In this document: in pieces, positions 3,826-5,851 of the stretch
How positions within the stretch are numbered: position 1 is the first letter of the stretch
Layout: the number at the start of each line of letters is the position of its first letter
NCBI RefSeq assembly: GCF_018406645.1
Contig: NZ_AP024546.1
Span: 2,108,001-2,172,000, forward strand
Reading direction: 5' to 3'
Source of the DNA: Lysobacter helvus
GTDB taxonomy: Bacteria; Pseudomonadota; Gammaproteobacteria; Xanthomonadales; Xanthomonadaceae
DNA: 64,000 nucleotides
The notes under the pieces: generated by a model
Database searches by the model: none
Told to the model about the DNA's origin: nothing
What the model saw: the letters and a program-made list of their open reading frames with translations, nothing else
Translations under genes and position numbers: made by a program

Positions 3826-4128
3826 ATGGCACTGACCAAAGCAGAGATGGCCGAGCGGTTGTTCGACGAGGTCGGCCTCAACAAGCGCGAGGCGAAGGAA
3901 TTCGTCGACGCGTTCTTCGATGCCCTGCGCGAGGCCCTCGAGGCCGGCCGCCAGGTGAAGCTGTCCGGCTTCGGCAACTTCGACCTGCGTCGCAAGAACC
4001 AGCGCCCGGGCCGCAACCCCAAGACCGGCGAAGAGATCCCGATCTCCGCGCGCACCGTGGTCACGTTCCGGCCGGGCCAGAAGCTCAAGGAACGCGTCGA
4101 GGCTTACACGGGAGCGGGGAATGCTTGA
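3826..4128 (+). CDS. ihfA: Integration host factor subunit alpha
   Basis: Small DNA-bending protein of the HU/IHF family, 100 residues. [26 protein letters not shown] is summarised here by its start; the beta-arm region contains [12 protein letters not shown], the family signature with the intercalating proline. The heterodimer with IhfB bends DNA in transcription, replication and recombination. Good ribosome site (AGGGGGACGAG) just upstream. Its last 8 bases overlap the start of the MerR gene, implying translational coupling. Confidence 0.97.
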
Positions 4129-4477
4129 CCCCGGCAGCAACAAGGAATTGCCGGCCATCCCGGCCAAGCGCTACTTCACCATCGGTGAGGTGAGCGAGCT
4201 GTGCGACGTGAAGCCGCACGTGCTGCGTTACTGGGAGACCGAATTCCCGAGCCTGAAGCCCGTCAAGCGCCGCGGCAACCGCCGCTACTACCAGCGCCAC
4301 GACGTCCTGATGGTCCGCCAGATCCGCGGCCTGCTGTACGAGCAGGGCTACACGATCGGCGGCGCCAGGCTGCGGCTGGAAGGCGAGGGGGCCAAGCAGG
4401 AGAGTGCGCTGAGCACGCAGATCATCAAGCAGGTGCGGATGGAGCTCGAGGAAATCCTCGTGCTGCTGCGCCGATGA
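4121..4477 (+). CDS. MerR family transcriptional regulator
   Basis: 118-residue protein with an N-terminal MerR winged helix-turn-helix ([20 protein letters not shown], about residues 17-40) and the [20 protein letters not shown] wing, then a short coiled coil. No C-terminal effector domain and no obvious metal-binding cysteines beyond the HTH, so a ligand cannot be proposed. In Xanthomonadaceae this MerR protein is constantly found between ihfA and a proline tRNA. Overlaps the ihfA stop by 8 bases. Confidence 0.9.
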
Positions 4478-4489
4478 GTTCGAAGCCGC

Positions 4490-4495
4490 TATAAT
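4490..4495 (+). promoter_or_regulatory. -10 box of the tRNA-Pro promoter
   Basis: Perfect TATAAT 13 bases before the first tRNA base, just after the MerR stop codon. The -35 region (about 4466-4472) is a poor match, so this could also only supplement read-through from the pheST-ihfA-merR operon. Confidence 0.6.
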
Positions 4496-4507
4496 CCGCG
4501 GCCTACC

Positions 4508-4584
4508 CGGGGTATAGCGCAGCCTGGTAGCGCACCAGTCTGGGGGACTGGTGGTCGTCGGTTCGAATCCGGCTACCCCGACCA
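4508..4584 (+). tRNA. tRNA-Pro (anticodon GGG)
   Basis: 77-nt cloverleaf. Acceptor CGGGGTA (4508-4514) pairs with TACCCCG (4574-4580); discriminator A and encoded CCA at 4582-4584. Anticodon stem CCAGT/ACTGG encloses loop CTGGGGG, with anticodon GGG at 4542-4544. T arm GTCGGTTCGAATCCGGC. Reads CCC/CCU codons. The 3' end is a classical type of integration site, but no integrase or duplicated 3' end is seen nearby. Confidence 0.97.
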
Positions 4585-4600
4585 AATCTGTAATCGAAAA

Positions 4601-4626
4601 GCCTCGCCTTGCGGCGGGGCTTTTTT
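4601..4626 (+). terminator. Intrinsic terminator after tRNA-Pro
   Basis: Stem GCCTCGCC (4601-4608) and GGCGGGGC (4613-4620) with loop TTGC and a run of six T at 4621-4626. Ends the pheST-ihfA-merR-tRNA-Pro unit. Confidence 0.92.
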
Positions 4627-4777
4627 ATTGTGTTCGTGGGCGTGATCGGCGTTACGAACGGATCAACGGCGGACACCCGTCGCCGCTGCGGATTGCTAAT
4701 AGGGACATTTCCCAATTGTTCGCACGTCGTTTCGGCAGAAAACTCCGACACGAAGTTTCCCGTGTTGGAGTACGCAA

Positions 4778-5281
4778 ATGCAGCAGCAGACCCTCGCTTC
4801 GATGACCGTCACCCAGGACCAGGAAGATGCCGTCCTCGCGGCCGTCCGGCAGATCGAGGCGCAGCTGCGCGGGTTGGTGTCGTTGGAGGCGGGCGACCGC
4901 AAAACACTCCCGGTGATGGGCCCGGAGTGCGAGCGGTTCGCCCGCTGTGTCATCCGCCAGTTGCAGCACAACGCGCACCTCGTGCCGCCCGGCCTCGACC
5001 TCGCCGGCGCACTCGCCGACCTGGCGGCGCTGGACCGCATGCGCCGGATCGACATCGTGCTGCAGCAACTCGCCTTGCGCGTGGCGGACACGATGGCCGC
5101 GCTGTGCAGCGATGTCATGGATGTCGCGCACGCAGGCCATGGGCTGCTGAAGCTCTTCGGCGACCAGGACGGGCTGCAGGGGATCCGCAAGGAATGCGGT
5201 TATCGCCATCTGCGTGCGCCGAGGACGCCGCAGGCGTTGTGGGGCAATCGCGACATGCGTGCGCGCGGGAGTGCGCATTGA
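4778..5281 (+). CDS. Conserved-looking hypothetical protein, helical
   Basis: 167 residues, not recognised. ATG chosen because GGAG lies 7 bases upstream (4767-4770). No signal peptide or membrane segment. The sequence is predicted mostly alpha-helical, with long amphipathic stretches (for example RQIEAQLRGLVSLEAG and LVPPGLDLAGALADLAALDR). Four cysteines, among them the pair in ECERFARCVIRQ, show no metal-site spacing. It stands alone between the tRNA-Pro terminator and the structured non-coding region, probably as its own transcription unit. Confidence 0.7.
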   Translation: MQQQTLASMTVTQDQEDAVLAAVRQIEAQLRGLVSLEAGDRKTLPVMGPECERFARCVIRQLQHNAHLVPPGLDLAGALADLAALDRMRRIDIVLQQLALRVADTMAALCSDVMDVAHAGHGLLKLFGDQDGLQGIRKECGYRHLRAPRTPQALWGNRDMRARGSAH

Positions 5282-5370
5282 TTGCCGGAATGCAGCAGGT
5301 TCTCCCGATTGGGTGAAGCGATGTAGCGATGTGTCGTTCCGTTGCTGCGTTGTTGTCTGATTGGGGTGGA

Positions 5371-5562
5371 GTGGGGCGCAAGACATGATTTGCGCACGGA
5401 GTTTGAAAGCTCCGCTCAACCATGTGTCGCGACACGGAAGCGCATCGCTCCGCGTCGGGAGGGGACTAATACAAGACCTCGCAAGAGGGAATAAGCCCAG
5501 CCGTAGTTGAGCGGTCTTTCAACCTCCCGACACCTTGCGTCGCACCCGCGACGCAAGGTTTT
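5371..5562 (+). ncRNA. Candidate structured small RNA or 5' leader with intrinsic terminator
   Basis: The gap between 5281 and 5588 holds no gene but a chain of hairpins: GCGCAA/TTGCGC (5376-5381, 5390-5395); CGGAG/CTCCG (5397-5401, 5410-5414); a 12-base palindrome GTGTCGCGACAC (5424-5435); then a branched domain closed by GTCGGGAGG (5454-5462) with CCTCCCGAC (5523-5531) and containing a GCAA-capped hairpin (5477-5488) and a GTTGA/TCAAC hairpin (5506-5523). It ends in a perfect 11-bp stem CCTTGCGTCGC (5533-5543, 5548-5558) followed by TTTTCCTT. The terminator does not overlap the closing stem, so an independent sRNA is more likely than a termination riboswitch. No known family was recognised. 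See findings. Confidence 0.55.
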
Positions 5563-5587
5563 CCTTCCCGGAAACACGGAGGTCCCC

Positions 5588-5851
5588 ATGCACGACATGC
5601 CCCGCGCGCACGAAACGCCCACCGTCTTCGTCATCCCCGACCACGCGCACCTGGAACTGGTCCAGATCCGCGATCACTTGCGCCTGCTGACGCGCCTCAC
5701 CGAACCCGGCACCGCCGCCAGCGACCACGACATGGCCCTGCGCCCCCACGCGATGTCGTGGTGGTTCTCGCGTCTCTCGCGCGACATCGACCACATCCTT
5801 GAAGAGACGTATTGGTCCGCGGCTGCGGCGAGCGGCACTGCAGAACACTGA
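5588..5851 (+). CDS. Small protein, XAC0095-like
   Basis: 87 residues from ATG 5588, preceded by GGAGG at 5578-5582. The part VFVIPDHAHLELVQIRDHLR resembles, from memory, a Xanthomonadaceae-restricted small-protein family (XAC0095-like) with a short N-terminal strand, LxLxQIRDHL helix and a tryptophan-containing C-terminal helix. No signal peptide, no membrane segment; role unknown. It lies 26 bases after the terminator of the candidate RNA, so it may be expressed through read-through of that leader. Confidence 0.65.
   Translation: MHDMPRAHETPTVFVIPDHAHLELVQIRDHLRLLTRLTEPGTAASDHDMALRPHAMSWWFSRLSRDIDHILEETYWSAAAASGTAEH

Follow-up and report, generated by a model that had tools for sequence, protein, structure and literature searches.

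A c4-type build in the sRNA-Xcc1 element of Lysobacter helvus and its probable role as the leader of an XAC0095-family gene

Introduction

Among phage antisense RNAs, the closest counterparts in design of the element described here are the C4 RNAs of phages P1 and P7 (RF01695), which Rfam groups with c4-a1b1 (RF03163) in clan CL00128, a clan that leaves sRNA-Xcc1 outside. The c4 RNA is described as being cut out of its transcript by RNase P (PMC5320573). In the phage form of such a module, an upstream decoy a1-b1, consisting of a hairpin (A) and its tail, precedes an antisense RNA of three stems (P1-P2-P3) in which the complements a'-b' lie, and a second target copy, a2-b2, is placed where ribosomes bind the following gene, in many cases one for an antirepressor. 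Two alternative folds are a point of likeness with IsrK of the Salmonella prophage Gifsy-1 (RF01394), whose locus is reported to produce both a read-through mRNA and a short, terminated RNA made from the beginning of the leader, and to alternate between a silent fold of -85.66 kcal/mol (wild type) and an active one of -84.21 kcal/mol (mutated RNA) (PMC4825925). The CI RNA of satellite phage P4, which we liken by description, has complementary sequence upstream in its own leader; it pairs with the upstream seqA and the downstream seqC, causing termination (PMC4825925). C4-derived RNAs are also found on bacterial chromosomes, where the Group 1 sRNAs of Acinetobacter baumannii form a multi-copy set of c4-type RNAs with a variable a' loop (PMC5320573); these match the C4 motif, whereas sRNA-Xcc1 is another family, often linked to XAC0095 or SymE.

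The sRNA-Xcc1 family itself (RF02221) is known to Rfam and is cited as integron-borne and virulence-regulated, with a mechanism that, in the portions of the literature consulted, extends only to predicted targets. In one published paper sRNA-Xcc1 and C4 antisense RNA stand as separate Rfam hits, and one published table that includes RF02221 also names a family c4-2. A 2025 paper on Xanthomonas integrons, which places sRNA-Xcc1 ahead of symE, suggests that regulation there follows a divergent mechanism (PMC12444791). A search that left subscription papers and the 2011 sRNA-Xcc1 paper outside its reach found no text connecting the family to a c4-type switch or to an antirepressor. Here we describe an sRNA-Xcc1 element in a stretch of 64,000 nucleotides of Lysobacter helvus (NZ_AP024546.1, positions 2,108,001 to 2,172,000; hereafter the window), set it beside its bacterial and viral relatives, and discuss how it may act on the small gene that follows it.

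Scope of the comparison

The source genome holds three sRNA-Xcc1 matches, two of them above the family cut-off. With the source genome included, matches occurred in 23 of 100 genomes of its taxonomic neighbourhood, at one to nine per genome, and in 26 of 369 genomes drawn from across the class. The resulting 114 loci comprise 74 order-level matches and 40 class-level matches from genomes other than the source; our own sRNA-Xcc1 alignment model (R1) was built from 63 of them. A motif scan of viral contigs returned at least 120 stretches, and the 80 loci analysed among those listed contain 86 model copies, or 76 distinct modules. Scans of downstream open reading frames (ORFs) covered 71 of the 74 order-level, 34 of the 40 class-level and 61 of the 76 viral loci. 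DNA similarity searches gave no match for the window element among plasmids, nor for one class-level copy among phages.

The window element is a structured RNA of the sRNA-Xcc1 family

The preliminary description of the window, made from the sequence alone, had marked 5371-5562 as a structured RNA of about 190 nt, and this is borne out by a predicted folding energy of -90.6 kcal/mol, which none of 200 shuffles equalled (mean -63.6, sd 4.9; z -5.54). Its remark that no known family could be recognised was mistaken, as the element matches RF02221 along the entire model (positions 1-87 of 87) and above the gathering score (Table 1). The Rfam model nevertheless does not cover the whole unit discussed below: it lacks the partner hairpin on the upstream side, the greater part of the 3' hairpin, and the ORF. 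No match to the C4 model RF01695 was obtained in 5200-5700 of the window, and the element is therefore not filed as C4, though it is C4-like in build.

Table 1. Features of the sRNA-Xcc1 unit and its downstream gene, in window coordinates
Feature	Position	Strand	Evidence
Hairpin A, GGAG/CTCC stem with 8-nt loop, bearing the a1-like sequence	5398..5413	+	Window sequence; position and shape the same in relatives
a1-like TTGAAAG, complementary to 5516-5522	5403..5409	+	7/7 paired; compensatory change U-A to C-G in L067
b1-like CCGCTCAAC, complementary to 5506-5514	5412..5420	+	9/9 paired; genus relatives complementary with other letters
Palindrome GTGTCGCGACAC	5424..5435	+	Window sequence; approximate site of the post-b1 T-run terminator in many copies outside the genus
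sRNA-Xcc1 (RF02221) match, three-stem RNA P1/P2/P3	5454..5539	+	62.4 bits, gathering cut-off 53
P1 5' strand, pairs with 5523-5531	5454..5462	+	P1 pairs changed on both sides among relatives
P3 hairpin; loop and 3' strand contain b'-like GTTGAGCGG (5506-5514)	5500..5515	+	Model alignment, folding
a'-like junction segment CTTTCAA, P3-P1 junction	5516..5522	+	Pairing score, folding
P1 3' strand, then ACC	5523..5531	+	Window sequence, folding
12-bp hairpin and T run, terminator- or attenuator-like, separating RNA from ORF	5532..5562	+	Terminator scan
Shine-Dalgarno GGAGG of the ORF	5578..5582	+	Window sequence
87-aa ORF, XAC0095 family	5588..5851	+	NCBIfam NF047335, 77.9 bits, cut-off 34

Much of the structure first proposed for this interval is upheld. 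The 9-bp stem is present, its two strands separated by 60 bases as described, and corresponds to P1, and the final stem with its T run is there too, at a length of 12 bp rather than 11 (5532-5543 with 5548-5559, then TTTCC). The picture of five hairpins in a row needs correction at its 5' end, where conservation of the first hairpin (~5376-5395) finds no support, and it overlooked the strongest helix of the region. Comparison of the 23 genus copies showed that the arms of that hairpin, GCGCAA/TTGCGC, occur in the window copy alone, and for this reason it is left out of the unit; in 18 of the 23, the 32 nt ahead of the following hairpin reach a folding energy of at least -4 kcal/mol in strength.

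The hairpin at 5532-5559 is the sole terminator-like site detected in 5270-5620. By our rule, a hairpin with a T-rich tail is found in 9/23 genus, 18/51 other order-level and 14/40 class-level copies. A run of at least five T between b1 and P1 is distributed otherwise: it is present in 38/51 of the other order-level and 25/40 of the class-level copies and in none of the 23 genus copies. The intrinsic terminator directly after the a1b1 part, a point of difference from IsrK, is thus absent here, and this genus probably does not make a short decoy RNA like that of the related isrK locus. An R-C-C sequence follows P1 in 26/40 class-level and 30/74 order-level copies, as ACC does in the window, which is suggestive only as regards an RNase P 5' end. 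A sigma-70 promoter scan returned no site.

An upstream partner is complementary to the P3 loop and junction

The strongest helix in the region joins 5398-5420 to 5506-5527, with a duplex energy of -33.2 kcal/mol that none of 2000 shuffles matched (mean -17.7, sd 3.0). Scored over two segments, the window's a1b1 pairs with its a'b' at all 14 of 14 positions. The same arrangement recurs in most copies: upstream stands a small hairpin whose loop has 7-8 nt, and a tail of some 7 nt comes next. Together, this loop and its tail are the reverse complement of the copy's own junction and P3 loop; the letters vary between copies and the complementarity is kept. A two-segment score of at least 12/14 was reached by 103 of 114 loci with their own partner against 137 of 1140 mismatched combinations, and two of the 11 loci below it (L027 and L048) lie beside an N. 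Because the background of this score is high, as both the 137 of 1140 mismatched combinations and the averages of 10.8-12.0 for other partners in the C4 yardstick make plain, the weight rests on permutation and covariation. A measure of the longest perfect match proved weak (own mean 8.3 against 6.2 for other partners, own strictly best in only 8 of 74), and duplex energies and the two-segment score were used in its stead.

When duplex partners were permuted 10000 times, the observed mean duplex energy was never reached, be it among order-level (n=64, z -21.0), class-level (n=40, z -12.3) or genus copies (n=23, z -10.8). Scanning about 600 nt on each side of the match gave a single upstream peak in order-level copies; class-level copies showed also a second, just past the match.

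Compensatory base changes in relatives, the test named in the preliminary description, were found in six genus sequences, and their absence is thereby excluded. In the 17-pair long-range helix of the window and five genus copies, 94.9% of cells are paired and 13 cells are changed on both sides; none of 500 shuffles reached the percentage paired, the 13 cells or the covariation score, while 14 of the 500 equalled the observed count of seven pairs with both sides changed, in a test that takes six sequences and draws its structure from one of them. Sliding the strands against each other lowered pairing to 26-52%. Predicted nested folds of the window RNA compete, the form with the long-range a1b1:a'b' helix at -95.8 kcal/mol and the P1-P3 form, with its 9-bp stem, at -87.6 kcal/mol. 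By sequence and predicted structure, the two pairings exclude one another, and compensatory changes have kept the long-range helix intact.

A small gene follows at a set distance

The preliminary description had offered a leader for the small gene at 5588 as one of two options, and it is the one that we favour, since 94 of 114 loci have, beginning 25-55 nt past the family match, an ATG ORF of 45 codons or more that is preceded by a Shine-Dalgarno match; of 1811 random points, 37 do. The order-level ORFs belong to XAC0095 in 49 and to SymE in 6 of 71 cases; among the 34 class-level ORFs scanned, Pfam recognised six SymE, one Bro-N and one KilA-N. PADLOC found no match among 71 ORFs. XAC0095 of Xanthomonas citri is reported to be expressed only in the plant, and its mutant is listed among those with altered virulence (PMC2653504). 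In one genome (G087), four ORFs (at L042, L043, L044 and L047) begin about 88-98 nt downstream, beyond the usual distance, and appear by eye to be neither XAC0095 nor SymE; the cargo there may be different or lost. Immediately 5' of the window element, a 167-aa ORF (4778-5281) gave no hit in either Pfam or NCBIfam at E up to 0.01.

The second copy is kept in viral relatives and missing in the window type

Viral members of the family carry the fuller arrangement. Among the matches listed, the upstream partner a1b1 was found in 65 of 76 distinct viral modules (mismatched combinations, 114/608), a second copy of loop plus tail, a2b2, no more than 75 nt downstream in 62 of 76 (mismatched, 99/608), and both together in 57 of 76. 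By our rule, 56 of the 62 viral modules with a2b2 among the matches listed have an ORF, and in 54 of these 56 the end of b2 lies 0-14 nt 5' of the start codon (median 9). Among the same listed matches, 37 of the 61 viral ORFs scanned matched PHROG 245, 'anti-repressor Ant'; the domains found include P22_AR, Bro-N, KilA-N, Rha and AntA. On one viral contig (L159, 2422-3753), an isrK and a C4 element, an sRNA-Xcc1 element, and again an isrK and a C4 element stand in tandem, a stack of switches from both families.

Class-level copies have a locus-specific downstream match (z -8.1; 21 of 40 at 12 or above), as do ten 'SymE-type' loci, a group picked by eye of which some have no SymE model match (z -3.9; 8 of 10000 permutations as low), two of them, L004 and L005, with a2b2 at 14/14. 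In order-level copies outside the SymE group, the window included, matching at the ribosome-binding site was not locus-specific (z +0.3; z +0.5 for the genus copies by themselves). Permutation, the ~600-nt scan and the two-segment score all failed to find an a2b2-like copy near the Shine-Dalgarno sequence of the window's ORF, and an exact-letter search of the whole genome found no second copy of its a1b1. The c4 step with an obvious translational effect is therefore lacking in the window type.

Comparison with C4 and IsrK

As in C4, the window element follows the P1-P2-P3 plan, with a'/b' in the P3 loop and junction, and has upstream an a1b1 complementary to a'b' (14/14, with covariation); its viral relatives, moreover, have a2b2 at a ribosome-binding site, often that of an antirepressor gene. 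It differs in that the ribosome-binding site of its downstream gene carries no a2b2, in preceding an XAC0095 ORF in place of an antirepressor, and in the P2 of its family, where a conserved AAUACAA/GGGRAAUA part takes the place of the C4 P2. Applied to 13 C4 loci as a yardstick, the same script scored a1b1 at 12/14 or above in 12 and found a2b2 in 10; in phage P1, a1b1 scored 14/14 and both a2 and b2 could be read in the sequence.

Sequence models join neither family to the other: at E up to 1, neither RF01695 nor c4-a1b1 was matched at 20 sRNA-Xcc1 loci, and a search with R1 at E up to 10 recovered none of the 13 C4 loci. The models thus leave shared ancestry with c4 unsupported. A shared structure model for C4 and sRNA-Xcc1 was considered and rejected, as R1 yields no C4 match. 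The isrK model, whose matches overlap the a1b1 region of C4 loci, had no match in 5200-5700 of the window at E up to 1; against the 20 sRNA-Xcc1 loci it gave one weak match, upstream of L085 (24.5 bits, E 0.33).

Discussion

In layout, locus-specific complementarity, compensatory changes, downstream ORF and the association of its viral relatives with antirepressors, all of which can be read from the DNA itself, the sRNA-Xcc1 family is built and placed like the phage c4 antisense RNAs. We consider it probable, if far from certain, that the window element is a domesticated c4-type sRNA-Xcc1 module acting as the leader of its XAC0095-family gene. In this lineage the module, which keeps a1-b1 and a'-b', would form the 5' leader of the small gene and would be transcribed from a start upstream of 5398. 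Capture of a'b' by a1b1 would disturb P1; conversely, formation of P1-P3, or a cut at 5454 of the kind that RNase P makes in c4, would leave a'b' free, and an 87-nt RNA may be excised from the leader transcript in the same manner. The RNA would thus flip between the a1b1:a'b' form and the P1-P3 form, and the flip, by way of the hairpin at 5532-5559, would decide between termination and read-through into XAC0095, setting the amount of mRNA or protein. That this hairpin makes the decision is the weakest step of the proposal. The 5' flank of P1 may conceivably compete with the 3' strand of the hairpin. Predicted pairing of the Shine-Dalgarno sequence changes little between the two competing folds, and we therefore consider a transcriptional effect likelier than direct masking.

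Other readings give the same parts different work. The pairing could act between molecules, as in P4, with the excised 87-nt RNA binding the nascent a1b1 leader of its own locus and stopping transcription before the ORF, a negative autoregulation in place of a fold switch in cis. The terminator-like hairpin at 5532-5559 lends itself to this, as does a1b1 being the sole target left in the window type; P4 CI RNA pairs with seqA and seqC and causes termination (PMC4825925), and outside the genus 38 of 51 order-level copies have a T run that separates b1 from P1. That run is nevertheless missing from all 23 genus copies, and the leader's own a1b1 would compete in cis for the incoming RNA, so that we regard this account as possible but unlikely. 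Less probable still is an RNA acting in trans on unlinked mRNAs through P3 and the junction, as proposed for sRNA-Xcc1 of Xanthomonas, with XAC0095 a mere neighbour. The X. campestris RNA was reported as a single band of ~100 nt, with ends mapped to 88 nt and many predicted targets (PMC2996969), and the window type has no adjacent target copy. A mere neighbour is nonetheless hard to square with a small ORF at a set distance in 94 of 114 loci, unlinked targets would leave unexplained why the P3 loop co-varies with its own upstream partner, and the genome has no second a1b1 sequence in a search of exact letters.

Two further explanations we consider very improbable. The preliminary description correctly placed ACGGA at 5396-5400 and 5434-5438 and AGGGA at 5486-5490, and the presence of three GGA motifs led it to suggest an RNA that titrates RsmA/CsrA. 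It saw these motifs in or next to loops, but the first GGA belongs to a stem, on the 5' side of the hairpin at 5398-5413; what is conserved is the three-stem fold and the locus-specific pairing, the latter not predicted by a sponge, and viral members of the family often precede antirepressors. Titration is accordingly not supported. The inverted complementarity might also be a feature of DNA, an integron attC-like site or the end of a mobile element, with no part in RNA regulation. The window's b1/b' fits GCTCAAC...GTTGAGC, which we take to be the attC core rule; those letters are not kept in many other copies, on which account an attC site was rejected, and the viral second copy ends 0-14 nt 5' of the start codon in 54 of the 56 modules with an ORF among the matches listed. 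In favour of such a feature stands the presence of sRNA-Xcc1 on Xanthomonas integron cassettes together with symE (PMC12444791).

Returning to the leader reading, a wider claim can be attached to it, which we offer tentatively and hold to be somewhat less likely than not to survive in full. The whole sRNA-Xcc1 family may be a second, hitherto unrecognised branch of phage c4-type antisense switches, domesticated by bacteria, whose genomes hold as many as nine copies, each with an address sequence of its own and each wired to its own small gene (XAC0095, SymE or others); in this genus it may have changed from an antisense RNA on a ribosome-binding site to a self-contained leader switch that needs neither target copy nor short decoy RNA. 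Viewed as a c4-type switch, sRNA-Xcc1 would gain a testable mechanism with a defined partner in the upstream hairpin, in many copies a defined target where ribosomes bind the following gene, a likely link to phages and a predicted enzyme for its processing, and the small-protein families XAC0095 and SymE would be connected to phage antirepressor circuitry. For SymE-type loci, the a2b2 of L004 and L005 would supply a mechanism for the divergent regulation suggested for Xanthomonas integrons (PMC12444791). The family may also serve as a natural collection of many distinct RNA address pairs, several per cell, in which to test how parallel RNA switches avoid cross-talk.

Genomic setting

At L027 and L048, both in one genome (G021), the N joins what appear to be two sRNA-Xcc1 copies just 5' of the match, and is probably an assembly gap between near-identical repeats. 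In all five genus genomes compared (the window, L061, L062, L067 and L071), a copy of the element follows, on the same strand, a block that contains a tRNA and two ORFs classed by eye as IHF-like and MerR-like. The distance from block to element ranges from ~0.85 kb in the window (3826-5600) to ~10.6 kb, and this tRNA flank looks like a variable island site.
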